Source: Spinacia oleracea
Lineage: Eukaryota; Streptophyta; Magnoliopsida; Caryophyllales; Amaranthaceae
NCBI RefSeq assembly: GCF_020520425.1
Contig: NC_079491.1
Span: forward strand, 23,799,449 to 23,863,448
Length of the DNA stretch: 64,000 nt
Direction: 5' to 3'
The position numbers and the translations under genes are program-made. Below are positions 52,336-64,000 of this stretch, piece by piece. The number at the start of each line of letters is the position of its first letter. The stretch's first letter is position 1. Under the pieces are notes generated by a model. That model did no database searches and had not been told where the DNA came from. It saw only the letters and a program-made list of their open reading frames with translations.

Positions 52336-52649
52336 GAAATAATGCCCTTGGTCCAAGTATGCATTCTATGTTAAGTCTAATAAATGCGGTTCAGTATTAA
52401 TTAACAAGTTAATAATTCAGTGAGATCAAGTGAGCTGAATGCATAGCTAGAGGCCGCTTCAGTTCAAGTGGAATTAATGATATTAATCCACAGCTTACTC
52501 TTGACTGAACCCGTAGGGTCACACAAATAGTACGTAAACGGATCAAGTATTTAATGGCATTAAATACTCCATCTATGGATATTCGGAATCGACGGATCTT
52601 GGTTTCAGTGGGAGCTGAGATCGTCACAGGCAAGAAATGAATACTCCGG

Positions 52650-52970
52650 AAACGATGATATTGCCGGAAACGGAAATATGGATCGTATCGGAAATATAAA
52701 TATTATCCAAGTCGTAGATGTTGCCGGAAATGGAAACATGGTACGTATCGGGAAATATTATCGGAAATGGAAATATTGCCGGAATCGGAAATATTGCCGG
52801 AAACGGAAATATTGTCAGAATCGGAAATATTATCGGAATCGGAAAATAATTCCGGAAACGGAAATATTAAATATTTGTTCGAAACGGAAATTAATTCCGG
52901 AATCGAAAATATTAAATATTGTTCGTATCGGAAATATATTCCGGAATCGGGAATTTAATCGGAAGCGTAT
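52650..52970. repeat. CGGAAATATT minisatellite in the copia LTR
   Basis: Irregular tandem array of CGGAAATATTGCCGGAA- and CGGAATCGGAAATATT-like units (16-18 bases). Confidence 0.75.
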
Positions 52971-55130: not shown

Positions 55131-58100
55131 GTTTGCATTACGATTAGATCGTTTTGAATGTTTAATTTGAAATTTTCAGTTTACGTAATTTTAATTAATT
55201 TTAAAATTAATAATTTAAATTATTTTCTTGGATTTTAATTTTGAATATTGTAATTATAATAAATTTTATTTATTCTAATTATTTTACTAAAATTAAAATC
55301 ATGAATTAATTTAAATACGACTGAAATTAAATTAAACTTTTTGGATTCAATTATAAATTTATATGAGCTTTAAATTTTAATTAAATTTGTATGTTTCCGG
55401 TTAGACTTGAAATACATTTTTATGTTTAAAATTAGTAAAGCATATGAATTTATTGGTTTAAGTGGGAGCGCTTTTTAGTCATAAACTCTTGATTAGGTCT
55501 ACGAATCCTTAAGGTTAAAACAACTTGATTAGAATTAATAAGGACTGAATAATTGGTAGATTATTGGTGCCCTTGATTAATTGCTGCAAATGTTTACGTG
55601 ATGCATAATGTGTTTTACTAACCAGCTATGTGGGCCATTCATGATAATGAATGGGTGAATGGTATATATTGTATATGTACTGTTTTGCAGGTTATGAAGT
55701 GACTAGTATGGCCCAAATAGGATAGAAAATATGGTCTGCGTACCATTAATTTGAATGTAATTGGTCTAAAGTACCAAAGTTGTTTTTCAATTCAAATATG
55801 GTCTGCGTACCATCAAATAGTTGTAATTAGTTTTAATTATAGCTTATCCTATTTGAAGAAAATGGTGCCTCCCACGGAGATTTTCAGACGGACTTTGAAG
55901 TCAAAGCTTCAAGATGAAGTCGGGCCATACTAGATCACATTTATCTTATGCATGCTTTAAGTTATTAATTGCTTTAAATATGTCTTAATTATGCATAAGA
56001 TTGTGGCTTGATTATGTTGCATGATTAAGGATTTTAGTTCACTTAAAATCTAACCAACATAGTAAGAGCCTTAAGTTCCAAACTTAAAAATTGAGTTAAA
56101 AGGTGCCATGCCAAAATATACACTTGCTTGGATATCCTTTACATCAATCTAGTAATAGTTTTCGCTCAGCGAGGTGTTACTTATTGTTCCTAAAGGGGCA
56201 AGGTACACAAATAATTGTGAGTACATGTTAGTTTTGGTGAAACTCAACGATATAAGTAAGGAGTCCTTTTATGTCGTGGCAAAATCGATAGGTTTACCTA
56301 ATAAGTTCTTAGACGTACCTATCAACCAAGAATAGTTTCTAGACTATTAGCAAAAGGCTTTTGCTTACCTAAGATGTTTTAGGATTAAGTCGACAAACTG
56401 TGCTTAGTTCTTCAATGATTTTAGGATCTTGGAATCATTTTATTCACACCTGCCGGAACACATAACTTGAATAAAATGCTTAATAAACATTGAATTATGC
56501 ATGTATGCTAGAATTTAAGTTTATTAAGAGAAACTGTGAATGGTTATTTATTTGTTTATTCTTTTCAATTGTAGTTTTTAATATGGCAAACAACAATTCA
56601 TTCAACATTCGATCAATTCTCGAAAAGGAGAAGTTGAACGGGAAAAACTTCCTTGACTGGCAAAGGAACTTGCAAATAGTTCTTATGCAGGAAGAAAAGG
56701 AGTATGTCCTAGATGAGGCGATGCCCGAAGCCGCAGGCGACGGGGTCACTCAGGCAGCCCTCAATCGTTGGATTGATGCCAACAAGGATGTGAAATGTCT
56801 AATGCTCGCCACCATGAGTGCGGAACTGCAGAAAACGTTCATCAACTCAGATGCTTTCACAATCATCAGTGAGTTGAAGAACATGTTCCAAGATCTGGCT
56901 CGAGTCGAAAGATTCGAGACTCATAGGCAAATTCTTGAGACCAAGCTTAAGAAAGGCGAGCCCGTAAGTCCACATGTTCTCAAAATGATTGGACTCATTG
57001 AGAATATGAGTCGGCTGGATCAGCAATTTTCTCAGGAAATGGCTATAGACACCATCCTCCATTCTCTTCATAGCGGGTATGATCAGTTCAAACTGAACTA
57101 CAGTATGAATAGTCTGGACAAAACGCTCACTGAGCTTCACGGTATGCTGAAGACCGCTGAAAAGACGCTCAAAAGTGATAAGCAGGATGTGCTTATGGTG
57201 CGTGGGGGCAAGTTCAAGAAATCTGGAAAGAAGAGGAATGCTAAGAAAGGTGGCAACAAGGCCAGCCCAACTAAGCAAACTGGCGCCAAATCTGTAAAGA
57301 GGAAGGTTAGTCAACCCACTTCTGAATCCGAATGCTTCTACTGCAAGAAGAAGGGGCATTGGAAGAGAGATTGCTTGAAGCTAAAGGAAGATCAGAAGAA
57401 CGGAACAGTCGTTCCATCTTCAGGTATTTTCGTTATAGACTGTATACTTGCTAATTCAACTTCTTGGGTATTAGATACAGGTTGTGGCTCACACTTATGT
57501 TCCAATCCACAGGGACTAAGAAGAAGTAGAAAGTTAAGCAAGGGTGAAGTCGACCTACGAGTGGGAAATGGAGCACGGATTGCTGCATTAGCTGTAGGAA
57601 CTTACTATTTGTCGTTGCCCTCCGGGCTAGTTTTGGAACTGGAAGAATGTTTCCATGTTCCAAGTCTTACTAAAAACATCATTTCAGTTTCTTGCTTAGA
57701 TGCTAAGGGATTTTCCTTTTTAATAAAAGACAATAGTTGTTCGTTTTATTTTAAAGAGATGTTTTATGGATCTGCTAGATTAGTCAATGGACTTTATTTA
57801 TTAGATCACGACAAACAAGTATATAACATAAATACCAAAAAGGCCAAAAAGAATGATTCTGATCTCACCTATCTGTGGCATTGTCGATTAGGCCATATAA
57901 ACTTGAAACGCTTAGAAAGACTTCAAAAGGAAGGAATTCTAGAACCATTTGACTTAGAGGATTATGGTAAATGCGAATCATGTTTACTTGGCAAAATGAC
58001 AAAGCAACCTTTCTCTAAAGTTGGAGAAAGAGCAAATGAACTATTGGGTTTAATCCATACAGATGTATGTGGACCAATGAGTACAAATGCTAGAGGTGGT

Positions 58101-60477
58101 TTCAGCTACTTTATCACTTTCACTGATGACTTCAGTAGATATGGTTATGTCTACCTAATGAAGCATAAGTCTGAATCCTTTGACAAATTCAAGGAATTTC
58201 AGAGTGAAGTAGAGAATCAATTAGGCAAGAAGATTAAGGCACTGCGGTCTGATAGAGGCGGTGAATATCTGAGCTATGAATTTGATGACCATCTGAAAGA
58301 ATGTGGAATTCTATCAGAATTGACTCCTCCTGGAACACCACAATGGAACGGTGTGTCGGAACGGAGGAACAGAACCTTGCTAGACATGGTCAGGTCAATG
58401 ATGGGTCAGGCCGAACTTCCATTAGAATTTTGGGGACATGCACTAAATACAGCTGCACTCACTATAAATAGAGCTCCGTCTAAAGCTGTCGAAAAGACTC
58501 CATACGAATTATGGTTTGGAAAGCCTCCAAATGTGTCTTTTCTTAAGATTTGGGGATGTGAAGTATACGTCAAACGATTAATTTCAGACAAACTTCATCC
58601 AAAATCTGACAAATGTATCCTTGTGGGCTATCCAAAGGAAACAAAGGGGTATTACTTCTACAATACATCTGAGAACAAGGTGTTTGTTGCTCGAGATGGT
58701 GTCTTTTTGGAGAAAGATCACATTTCCAAAATGACAAAGTGGGAGAAAAGTAGACCTCGAAGAAATTCGAGTCGAACAACAAACTCTAGAGAATGCTCAA
58801 GATGACATCAAGATGACATTCAGGATGAAGCTCAGAGATCTTTAGAAGAATCTGGTGAGAATCATGGTCAATCTAGAAATGTTACCCCGCGTAGATCGCA
58901 AAGATATAGATCTCAACCGGAAAGGTACTTAGGTATTTTGACGAACGAGAGCTATGACGTTCTATTACTTGAAAGTGATGAACCTGCGAGTTACAAACAA
59001 GCTATGACGAGCCCTAGCTCCAAGCAGTGGCAAGAAGCCATGCAATCTGAATTAGACTCCATGTCTGAAAACCAAGTATGGGATTTGGTCGATTTGCCAG
59101 ATGGCTACCAAGCCATTGGAAGCAAATGGGTTTTCACACTGAAAAAGGACAAGGATGGGAAACTTGAAGTTTTCAAAGCTAGATTGGTTGCAAAAGGTTA
59201 CAGGCAAGTCCACGGTGTGGATTACGATGAAACCTTTTCACCAATTGCAATGCTAAAGTCTATTCGGATAATGTTAGCAATCGCTGCATATTACAATTAC
59301 GAAATATGGCAGATGGATGTCAAAACTGCTTTCTTAAACGGCGTTTTAACAGAAACTGTGTTTATGACACAGCCTGAAGGTTTTGAGGATCCAAAGAATG
59401 CTAAAAAGGTATGCAAGCTAAAGAAGTCAATCTACGGATTGAAGCAGGCATCCAAGAGCTGGAATATAAGTTTTGATGAAGCAGTCAGTGACTTTGGTTT
59501 CATCAAAAACGCGGACGAATCTTGTGTATACAAGAAGGTCAGTGGGAGCAAAATTGCTTTCCTAGTATTATATGTCGACGACATATTACTTATCGGAAAT
59601 GACATTCCTATGTTGAACTCTGTCAAGATTTGGCTTGGGAAATGTTTTTCGATGAAAGATCTAGGAGAAGCACAGTACATATTGGGCATCAAGATTTACA
59701 GAGATAGATCTAAAAAGATGATTGGACTTAGTCAAAGCACTTATATCAATAAGGTGATTGATAGGTTCAAGATGGCGGACTCCAAGCGAGGCTACCTACC
59801 CATGTCTCATGGAATGACTCTAAGCAAGACTCAGTGCCCAAAAACACTTGATGAGCGTAGACGAATGAATGGGATTCCATATGCATCATTGATTGGTTCA
59901 ATAATGTATGCTATGATATGTACACGCCCGGATGTTGCGTACGCACTCAGTGCTACGAGCAGATACCAGTCAGACCCAGGAGAGGCGCATTGGACTGCTG
60001 CCAAGAACATTCTGAAGTACCTGAAAAGGCACAAAGATGACTTCCTGGTCTATGGTGGAGATGATGAATTAATTGTTAAAGGCTATACGGACGCAAGTTT
60101 CCAAACCGACAAAGATGATTTCAGATCATAGTCTGGGTTTGTCTTCTGCCTCAACGGAGGAGCAGTAAGCTGGAAAAGTGCTAAGCAAAGCACCATTGCG
60201 GATTCTACAACTGAAGCGGAGTACATTGCTGCACATAAAGCAGCAAAGGAAGCTATATGGCTAAGGAAGTTCATAGGTGAACTCGGTGTAGTCCCCTCCA
60301 TTAAAGGACCAATAGCCCTGTATTGTGATAATAACGGAGCTATTGCACAGGCAAAGGAGCCTAGACACCACCAGAGAGTCAAGCATGTACTTCGTAGATT
60401 TCACCTTCTACGAGAGTTCGTTGAAAGAAAAGAAGTCGAGATAAGCAAAATTGGTACTGATGACAACATATCAGATC

Positions 60478-63400
60478 TGTTGTGGGGTTTTTCCGGTGAG
60501 ATACCTTGGAGGTTTCTTGGTAACTTTTAAAGATTAAACAAGATTGTATTTTTATAGAGAGAGAAAGTAGAGAGAAGGCAGAGCAGCAATTGCCCTAGAA
60601 TGTATTGATTGTGACCCCTTTTTCTAGGGAAGTGGGAATATTTATAGTACTAGGTTTTTGTGGGAATGACCTAATATTCCCCTTACATGATTGGCTGGGG
60701 AATGGGAGAAGGACACGTGTCCTTTCTCCTTACAATTCTCTGATCCCTTGTAGCAATAGTGGGCTATTTGGGCCTATTGTGCTTAGTAATTCACTTGGGA
60801 TACATACTAATTAAGCCCTTTTCCAGGTATAAGTTTTATACGTACATTTATACATACTTAAATACATACATTGTAGATACCTAGATTAATACTCATGCCC
60901 CGGAGTAGACTTTGCATGATTTCTGCTTTAGGGGGCGCAATACGTGCCAGGTGTCACATCTTCATTGGTGCACGAAGGCATGGTAATTTTGCCCACAACA
61001 TTTGCCCCTCAAGAAGGGCATTTCTGGAAACACTTTCCGGGTATCGCTTCTTGATCTTTGATTTGCATCTTCATCTTTGGGTCAGGTGTTGAGGGGGTGA
61101 CACGTGTCACCTTTCTCTATTTTGCCCCTCCCTATATATAGAGGGGGGGGGGGGGTAAATTTCATTTTTTTACATTTCGTTTTCACAGAGCTCTCATAGG
61201 CGATTTCCGGCGTGTTCCTACCACCATCAGGCGATTTCCGGCCACCACGAGACTCATCCTTTTCCTCGTCAAACTCATCCTGTTCTTCGCGAAATTCATC
61301 CCGTTCTTCGCGAAACTCATCCTGTTCTTCACCAAGTACTTCGCGGATCTTTCAAGGTTAGTTTTCGCCTTTCTTGTTTTTGTTATCCTCTCGTCATTTT
61401 TCTCTTTGTTAGCGGCCGACCTCTTAGTACTAGGTAAGGGTTTAAAGGTTTTATTTAAGATTTTTCCGCCGTTCATCTTTTGTCGGGGCGGACGTCCAAT
61501 CGCGTCTTTTTCTTCATTGTTGGTCACCCCTAAGCCGTGCTTCGTTCACTATGCAGAAGGCATGGCTAGAACCAAGCAAACGGCAGATCCTACGCGCCTG
61601 CGCTTGCGGGAAGGAGCATCGACACCTCCTAGGGAGAGATATTCTTCCACCGCCTCGGCAGTCGACGAAGAATTTGCCGAACTCTTTCAAGAGATCGACG
61701 AGTACGTCGAGGCGGGGGAGCAGGCGGCAAGCTCGTCGGAGGGTACAGCGAGCCAGGCAGTGGGGGAGCCAAGCGTCGCTCCATTGTCATCGGCCGCCGA
61801 GGAGCAAGAAGCTGCTCCCCAGCTTATTAGGCCCAGAGGACGGGAGGAGGCCCAATTGCTTCCGTCAGAAATTCATCCAGACGTGGGCTGGATGCGGTGG
61901 CTAGACAGGCACGGAGCCAAGATGAGGGATGACCTCTGCGTGGGGGAAGGGTACCAAATGCGCGTGCCGGCCGGTCTGGACTCGACCGTCAGCCTGCTTG
62001 CCGAGGGAGAATTCCCTGTGTATGCCGCGTCAATCAAACTCGGCATGAGATTCCCTCCACACCCCTTCGTTGTGGAGGTGTTAGATGGTTTTAATATTGG
62101 GGTGGCCCAGCTGACCCCCCACTCATGGGCGGATATCTTTGGCTACATTGCCAAATGTGCGCTGAACGACGTGGAGTCGTCCTTCAACGCCTTTCTGCAT
62201 CTGGTCTCCCTCTCTCGTTCCCCCAGTGCCGCCAAAGGGTGGTTTAATCTGAGCAGCCGTGGTACCTACCAGACAGTGGTCGGCAAGCTCAGCAAGTGGC
62301 ATATGTGGAGGAAGAGGTGGGTCGTGTTTTACACGGACGACCAGGAGATGTATGAGCGAATGAGCCGTTGGAACTGCAACGCCAACTTCATGGATCGTGA
62401 CGAGCCCCTTCCACCCCTTACTGCCGAAGAGTGGGATCAGATAATGGTCCTGTTCAGGGCCAACACTTACCACTTAACAGTGGATAAGAGTTTCCATGTG
62501 CCGGCCGAGTGGTTGCCGCACATTAGCCAGTTTCGGAACGAGGCTTTTCTAGCGGCCGTAGGCTTAGGATATTCCATGACTCGAGGTTGTATGCCAATTT
62601 ATGTGCCGCTCTGCCTTGGTCTTATTCATTTTTCTAACTTTGGATTTCTTTTGTTCTCAGAGGAAGGAATGAGCAAGTTGTCGGCGGCGGATACCGGGAA
62701 AGGCGATATGACCGATTGGATGGCGGACATCTATGAGGCCAAGATGCAAAAAGCCAAGGCCGAGTTGGAGTACAAGGTGAGTATTCTCTTAGGTTGTTTT
62801 TTGCAAGTTAAGCTTCCTCCGTCCATTGTCTATAGTGGACGTCTATTTAGTGACGAGCCGATATCCTGACATGTGACCCATGTTTGCTAATGTTGGCCTC
62901 GTCACTTTTTAATGACGGGCCCCTTTGTGAGTGTTTTTCCTGTGGTTGCCAAGGTGCGCCTCGTCACCTTTTAAGACGGGCCACCCCCACCCCTTTTTTA
63001 CAAGTGACTCGTGGTTGATAGGGTACGCCTCGTCATTTTCGAGACGGGCGTCCTTTTTTATGACGAGCCATTTTTATATGAGTGTTGCACTTGATAAGGT
63101 ACGCCTCGTCATTTTTAAGACGGGCGTCCTTTTTTAATGACGAGCCACTATTTAATGACTTGTGATTGATAAGGTACGCCCCGTCATTTTTAAGACGGGC
63201 GTCCTTTTTCAATGACGAGCCACTGTTCTGTGAGTGACTTGTGATTGAAAAGGTACGCCTCGTCATTTTTGAGACGGGCGTCCTTTTTAATGACGAGCCA
63301 CTGTTCTGTGAGTGACTTGTGATTGATGAGGTACGCCTCGTCAATTTTAAGACGGGCGTCCTTTTTTAATGACGAGCCACTATTTAATGACTTGTTATTG

Positions 63401-64000
63401 ATAAGGTACGCCCCGTCATTTTTAAGACGGGCGTCCTTTTTCAATGACGAGCCACTGTTCTGTGAGTGACTTGTGATTGAAAAGGTACGCCTCGTCATTT
63501 TTGAGACGGGCGTCCTTTTTAATGACGAGCCACTGTTCTGTGAGTGACTTGTGATTGATGAGGTACGCCTCGTCATTTTTGAGATGGGCGTCCTTTTTAA
63601 TGACGAGCCACTACATGGTGAGTGACTTGTGATTGATCAGGTACGCCGTCATTTTTAAGATGGGCGTCCTTTTTAATGACGAGCCACTATATGGTGAGTG
63701 ACTTGCGATAGATGACGAGGCCTAATATTTGACTGTCCTTTCTTTTTTAGCAAGCTAAGGACGCGGCTAGGGCGTCAGGGAAGAAGAAGGGGACGACTCT
63801 GTCCCAGCTGAAGAAGAGAGCTGTGCCGGCTGGCTCGGAGACTCCGAGTACCTTCAAGAAGCCAAAACCCCTACCTCGCCGTCTCGTGAAGAAATACGAG
63901 TCGAAGGTTGCTGAGGGGGGATGCCCTGATGACGAAGAGATGGGCGTGGACAAGCCGTCTCTGGTGGTGGACTTGGTGTCCAAATCGAGGTCCGGTGGGC
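60478..64000 (+). mobile_element. LTR element with gypsy-type gag-like gene, runs off the window
   Basis: The 5' LTR is 60478-61000 (523 bp): it opens TGTTGTGGG and closes CCCACAACA. It interrupts the RNase H end of the copia fossil, so this is a nested insertion; the expected target copy on the left is AGATC. A leader with ATTTCCGGC and TTCGCGAAACTCATCC repeats follows. The gag-like region starts at 61562 (MARTKQTADP...) and carries the 'putative gypsy type transposon' domain seen in plants (MRFPPHPFVVEVLDGFNIGV, then AQLTPHSW). A 78-bp tandem array (62890-63720) separates it from further coding-like sequence (63752 onward, basic, GKKKGTTLSQLKKR). The array has splice-like borders (AAG|GTGAGT, TTTTAG|CAA), so it may be intronic. 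Wholeness cannot be judged, as the rest lies outside. Confidence 0.75.
62890..63720. repeat. 78-bp tandem array, about 10 units, hairpin-forming
   Basis: Units begin GGTACGCCTCGTCATTTTT and run through AGACGGGCGTCC, AATGACGAGCCACT and GTGACTTGTGATTGAT. CTCGTCATT and AATGACGAG within each unit are inverse, so every unit can fold. Three neighbouring units form a block that recurs about 232 bases later (63139 onward versus 63371 onward). Confidence 0.85.

Follow-up and report, generated by a model that had tools for sequence, protein, structure and literature searches.

The window, by which we mean the whole 64,000-nucleotide stretch of Spinacia oleracea DNA that we analysed, ends within a copy of an LTR retrotransposon that sits inside a Copia element. 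Its two LTRs, identified as a direct repeat, measure 523 nt each with 1 mismatch between them. They have TGTTG...CAACA ends (the 3' LTR is limited by TGTTGTGGG...CCCACAACA) and enclose an internal region of 11,294 nt, and a 5-bp target-site duplication, AGATC, flanks the element on both sides. Between the LTRs, gag-pol forms a single unbroken minus-strand frame with Pfam domains in the order PF03732 (gag), RVT_1, RT_RNaseH and rve, that is, reverse transcriptase before integrase, the gypsy order. The element is bounded by the following features.

60478..61000, minus strand (the sense strand of the element): 3' LTR, from the direct repeat
72295-72817 in window numbering, past the window edge: partner LTR
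61001..61010, minus strand: polypurine-tract-like stretch GAGGGGCAAA adjoining the 3' LTR, assigned by eye

Pol contains two RNase H-like domains, RT_RNaseH at 464-562 and RVT_3 at 602-719 (Pfam), the latter of which we take to be an archaeal-type RNase H. A second, archaeal-type RNase H is described as unique to the Tat lineage in the available portion of PMC6317226, and the paired domains therefore assign this element to Tat. The window copy also carries an open reading frame for a TRP28 protein between pol and the 3' LTR, on the strand opposite gag-pol. In the accessible parts of the Retand survey by Vicient (2025, PMC11963269), an antisense TRP28 (PF04195) frame occupies this position in 97% of recent clusters, and nearly all recently active Retand clusters encode TRP28 proteins. 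The window element resembles those described there in its gag-pol, its long region between pol and the 3' LTR, its antisense TRP28 frame and the tandem repeats in that region. The same source lists a Spinacia oleracea cluster with an LTR of 425 and an internal region of 10,719, compared with 523 and 11,294 here. The element is a Retand/Tat-type Ty3-gypsy LTR retrotransposon, the name Retand resting on anatomy.

The antisense gene is laid out as follows; its promoter and splicing are predictions.

61133..61141, plus strand: TATA-box-like TATATATAG, candidate promoter of the antisense gene, outside the LTR
61357..61556, plus strand: predicted 5'-UTR intron, AAG/GTTAGT ... TATGCAG/AAGGC
61562..61585, plus strand: MARTKQTA start, equal to histone H3 residues 1-7 once Met is discounted
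61562..62585, plus strand: first coding exon of the antisense gene, with 341 complete codons for the TRP28 protein
62021..62212, plus strand: TRP28 / Transposase_28 domain (PF04195), amino acids 154-217, E 1.3e-08, above the Pfam cut-off
62586..62660, plus strand: predicted small intron, CGAG/GTTGTATG ... TTCTCAG/AGGAAGG
62661..62776, plus strand: predicted second coding exon, proposed from sequence and frame (exons 1 and 2 total 1140 nt)
62777..63750, plus strand: predicted intron, mostly ~78-bp tandem repeats (repeat families D1-D3), splice sites placed by eye
63751..64000, plus strand: predicted third coding exon, open frame QAKDAARASGKKKG..., continuing past the window

The initial annotation had labelled the product Gag-like. 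We rejected that identity: PF04195, at amino acids 154-217, is the only Pfam domain of the protein, and gag-pol lies on the other strand. Being antisense, placed between pol and the 3' LTR and equipped with PF04195, the product is better described as an accessory protein. The 368-aa match is free of stops in 102 of the 111 scored genome matches to the window family. One copy, L036, has a stop within the stretch corresponding to the predicted intron at 62586..62660. The predicted third exon yielded no Pfam match, searches of PDB sequences returned no relatives at E up to 1, and none were found in viral contigs (queried with amino acids 101-340) or in prokaryote contigs (queried with alignment A1). 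An AlphaFold model of amino acids 1-341, built on an 8-row alignment, reached a pLDDT of 37, too poor for use. Further downstream, an open frame of the antisense gene (L061, 4447-5049) appears coiled-coil-like, with weak Fez1 and NET2A matches below Pfam cut-offs. Repeats punctuate the gene on both sides of the domain: three imperfect 21-bp repeats lie at 61248-61331 in the predicted ATG-free 5' leader, and the ~78-bp repeats of the predicted 62777-63750 intron include two that are arranged, at 99% identity, as a higher-order unit of 232 bp.

The ATG at 61562 opens the frame MARTKQTADPTRLRLRE..., which begins M-ARTKQTA. Removal of Met is expected ahead of Ala, and we infer that the TRP28 protein loses it as well; the mature histone H3 N-terminus reads ARTKQTA followed by R8, as is legible in 14 H3-type starts of the same genome. 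The claim that seven H3 residues stand at a credible N-terminus is therefore true of this frame. The match stops after residue 7, where the protein has D8 and H3 has R8, so that nothing imitates R8-K9 of H3. We also looked for an upstream start that would make the motif internal, and no in-frame ATG is present from the LTR edge to 61562. The single ATG between that edge (61001) and 61561, at 61551, is out of frame with 61562 and is part of a TATGCAG that could plausibly serve as 3' splice site for the 5'-UTR intron whose donor, AAG/GTTAGT, is at 61357. If this intron is spliced and the transcript starts outside the LTR, 61562 is consequently the first ATG; on an unspliced transcript, it would be preceded by the ATG at 61551, which opens a frame of 117 aa. 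A start at 61562 is thus well predicted. The same TATGCAG acceptor lies 5-6 nt ahead of the ATG in most of the related copies shown for lineages A, B and C, which are described below.

We found that the start recurs far beyond chance. The 894-Mb genome contains 353 starts coding for MARTKQTA against 0.017 expected from window base composition, and the reversed pattern, used as a control, occurs at 0 places; the initial annotation's judgement that the match is unlikely by chance was well founded. Among the 353 starts, 334 read MARTKQTA[D/N] (reversed control, 0), 14 read MARTKQTARK like H3, and 5 read neither. We read the surroundings at 30 of the 353 places, and all 30 were starts of this element type. 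A wider pattern, MAR[T/I/M][K/R][K/Q]TA[D/N], matched 639 places with a control of 0. Freeing residues 1, 3 and 4 also gave 639 places; among the 100 matches listed, 2 belonged to an unrelated repeat, MGRVHKTA. Lastly, a pattern anchored on the splice acceptor, A1-R2 and residue 8, with residues 3-7 free, matched 778 places, of which 100 were listed and tallied. In these 100, residue 3 was T in 53, I in 46 and V in 1; residue 5 was Q in 83, K in 14, N in 2 and H in 1; residue 6 was T in 96; and residue 7 was A in 76 and T in 19. Residue 4 was basic in all 100, with K in 61 and R in 39 (R4 is found in much of lineage C), so K4 itself is not kept in all relatives. T3, K4, Q5 and T6 are each written with two or three codons.

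Comparison of TRP28 lineages A-D separated the motif from the exact histone letters. The lineages other than A are known here from their TRP28 frames, the antisense Retand setting being established for the window copy. Directly after the start, lineages A, B and C are barely alignable, yet they have in common M-A-R-[TI]-[KR]-[QK]-T-A-[DN]. Exact H3 residues 1-7 are kept in lineage A only: B reads ARTKKTA (Q5K), C carries T3I, in many copies along with K4R, so that it mostly reads ARIRQTA without T3 and K4, and D has no motif. Residues LRLR at 13-16 are common to A and B. In a TRP28 tree with its midpoint root between D and the rest, B takes a basal, unresolved position, and A is the sister lineage of C (98/88). 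Because A and B have T3-K4 while C has both K4 and R4, T3-K4 is probably ancestral; it looks as though exact ARTKQTA was kept in A while C moved to ARI[K/R]QTA. The sole C copy with T3, L089 (MARTKQTT), is nested inside its lineage, and its T3 may therefore be a back-change.

We based conservation claims on loci chosen by their domains (L063-L078 and L094-L127) and on the window copy. Loci L031-L060 and L079-L093 were found via N-terminal patterns and hence show zero non-synonymous motif change by construction. Sixteen loci (L063-L078) were picked by hand from 150 scored Pfam-domain matches on the basis of their TRP28 match and location, with their starts still unread. Eight of the 16 have the motif: L070 reads MARTKKTAN, as does L076 with its ATG lost; L071 reads MARIKQTAN; L072, L073, L075 and L077 read MARIRQTAN; and L078 reads MTRIRQTAN. 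Lineage C copies whose start is visible thus account for 6 of the 16; R4 is found in 5 of them, and a typical R4 copy has 5 of 8 residues in common with the window copy. The N-terminus is replaced in L069 and L074. In the six lineage D loci (L063-L068), we sought the motif upstream of the domain and did not find it; this lineage has a different upstream frame (MDNNSKPQLKSNT... in L064). A further 34 loci (L094-L127) were picked by hand, again before starts were read, from matches to the TRP28 domains of lineage-A copies that had diverged (20 of 150 and 14 of 150 matches); loci collected earlier and positions already represented were omitted. With a probe taken from the start of the window copy, 32 of these 34 could be anchored, and T3 and K4 were present in 32 of 32: 14 read exactly MARTKQTA, 6 read MARTKQTT and 12 carried other changes, among them replacement of A1 (by S, G, E or T) or of R2 (by K), a stop and loss of the ATG. 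The two loci whose start this probe did not anchor, L109 and L122, may have other starts, since the probe contains the motif.

The N-terminus is under purifying selection. We compared the window copy (L001) for lineage A, L070 for B and L071 for C, all chosen regardless of N-terminus; L071 has I3-K4, while most C copies have I3-R4 and agree with the window copy at 5 of 8 residues rather than 6 of 8. Over codons 2-9, each A/B/C pair keeps 6 of 8 residues, with pS at 0.69-1.46, near or at saturation, and pN at 0.11-0.14. Elsewhere in the same pairs, pN is 0.55-0.63 for the linker that follows and 0.36-0.43 for the TRP28 region. For these non-independent pairs, Fisher tests gave p = 3e-4, 3e-5 and 3e-5 for the N-terminus against the linker and 0.02, 0.02 and 0.005 against the TRP28 region. 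The first eight residues, Met included, have the top three-way identity of 180 windows, tied with four others. Residues 2-9 rank 9th of 180 with 18/24, and linker windows average 4/24. A conserved N-terminal short linear motif on a fast-changing linker is well supported by these data, the linker behind it being long, variable and probably disordered. Conservation with purifying selection, on which the case for histone mimicry had been made to depend, stands for the motif across diverged lineages A-C of this genome; it does not extend to the exact H3 letters, which are confined to lineage A, or to the motif-less lineage D.

Several explanations compete for this pattern. The window family is young, as its LTRs (1 mismatch in 523) and its 111 scored matches (96-100% identical) attest, and conservation among its copies for that reason says little; a chance resemblance multiplied by a young high-copy family under no constraint is nonetheless barely credible. 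It is contradicted by lineages that stay conserved despite near-saturated synonymous sites, by T3-K4 in all 32 anchored domain-chosen loci and by the 639 places that match the motif where the control has 0, and we rejected pure chance on the recurrence, the anchored loci, and the Fisher and window-identity statistics. The same scrambling of synonymous sites places the constraint on the peptide, not the DNA. A nucleotide signal for splicing, translation start or reverse transcription, with the peptide as its by-product, could draw on the recurrent splice acceptor 5-6 nt before the motif and on ATGGC at the start, a good translation start context. Since motif synonymous positions are near saturation between lineages (pS 0.69-1.46) and T3 to T6 use alternative codons, we rejected constraint at this level and consider it highly unlikely. 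Capture of the N-terminus from a histone H3 or CENH3 gene is very unlikely too: the peptide is identical and 14 H3-type starts exist in the same genome, but identity stops at residue 7, the predicted exon starts 5-6 nt before the ATG at a TATGCAG acceptor that most of the A, B and C copies shown possess, and codon choice varies among lineages, although only 24 nt are available to judge origin.

The strongest competitor is a conserved short linear motif whose function is unrelated to H3, such as nuclear import, N-terminal processing, or the binding of another protein, RNA or DNA via R2 and the basic residue 4. A basic motif can be conserved at an N-terminus for reasons that do not involve H3, and the lineage A match would then be one point in the allowed space M-A-R-[TI]-[KR]-[QK]-T-A-[DN]. 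We regard this as having close to an even chance of being right. Lineages B and C hold the motif and not the H3 letters; what is best kept is the charge at residue 4 and T6, not K4 as such; and A and B have in common LRLR at 13-16, presumably absent from H3. Against it, the agreement of lineage A with H3 at all seven residues would have to be put down to a large coincidence, and the inferred ancestral T3-K4 makes the motif more H3-like back in time. Our best reading, unproven and held tentatively at somewhat below an even chance, is that the start imitates the unmethylated H3 tail. Strict H3K4 mimicry has to reckon with ARIRQTA in C, ARTKKTA in B, the end of identity at residue 7 and a lineage D without the motif.

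Imitation of the unmethylated tail suggests the following course of events. The antisense TRP28 protein would be made, probably from its own internal promoter, opposite gag-pol, and would act in the nucleus. Cleavage of Met would expose a free Ala1-Arg2-x-basic4 end, which could dock in a host pocket whose usual ligand is the unmethylated H3 tail, much as SNAG domains do with LSD1. Candidate pockets are those of an LSD1-type demethylase, a JMJ-type H3K4 demethylase or a K4me0-reading PHD or WD40 protein. With the TRP28 domain tethering the protein to element DNA or to partners, a chromatin factor might be recruited or blocked, to the benefit of element transcription or integration. The initial annotation had proposed H3K4 readers or modifiers as targets. 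R4 cannot carry lysine methylation, which rules out a methyl-K4 reader as the universal partner; the better fit is a binding site for the unmethylated tail that recognizes free Ala1, Arg2 and a basic residue 4. A more specific proposal, which we offer with greater reserve as a possibility, is that Retand antisense TRP28 proteins bear a dedicated imitation of the unmethylated H3 tail that captures an H3K4-reading or -demethylating silencing factor of the plant; hundreds of copies in this genome would encode it, with residues 3-5 tuned lineage by lineage to changes in the host partner.

Histone mimics such as influenza NS1 and G9a carry a short H3-like motif in a non-histone protein. To our knowledge, the pathogen and host mimics of this kind are C-terminal or internal, and none are known from plant mobile elements, whereas the TRP28 motif is N-terminal and belongs to one. 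The SNAG motif also sits at the extreme N-terminus, and it is not known to have a lysine at position 4. According to the available text of PMC5896174, the SNAG domain of GFI1 and SNAI1 imitates the H3 N-terminal tail in the LSD1 substrate cleft. The likeness lies in a motif that imitates, or in our case would imitate, the H3 tail; the differences are another sequence, a setting in animal transcription factors, and binding that is proven there and proposed here. In plants, the accessible portion of PMC6208443 describes AGDP1 as contacting H3 A1, R2, K4me0 and A7 plus R8 and K9me2, with binding impaired by mutation of the R2, K4, R8 or K9me2 pockets; the TRP28 start, unlike this ligand, has no R8 or K9. 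A comparable antisense protein, GENE23 of maize Grande, is nuclear, and the word 'histone' is absent from the available text of the review that covers it (PMC7264820). Antisense TRP28 frames were already known from Retand; the main text of the Retand paper, in its available portions, makes no mention of an H3-like start (PMC11963269), and we found no H3-like N-terminus on a TRP28 protein or plant retroelement among the titles and abstracts listed in our literature searches. A selected H3-like N-terminus would provide a concrete point of molecular access, with peptides such as ARTKQTADPTRL, ARTKKTANIADL and ARIRQTANVRAW as possible bait. Should the mimicry be real, plant mobile elements would have their own equivalent of the viral and SNAG-type histone mimics, and a retrotransposon would have a route for disturbing chromatin silencing from an antisense gene.

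The surroundings of the element provided some further observations. The Copia element at 56505-60477 is broken near its own 3' end by the Retand copy and has an in-frame TAG at 60129-60131. Judging from its translation, a repeat with an 18-bp period at 52628-52964 seems to be present again near L062 4000-4700, and the pair may mark the Copia LTRs. Across the genome (G000), element copies appeared clustered at C1 28-35 Mb, C2 23-27 Mb, C4 69-73 Mb, C5 121-124 Mb and C6 15-20 Mb, megabase zones that are perhaps pericentromeric, the clustering being judged by eye among the copies listed.
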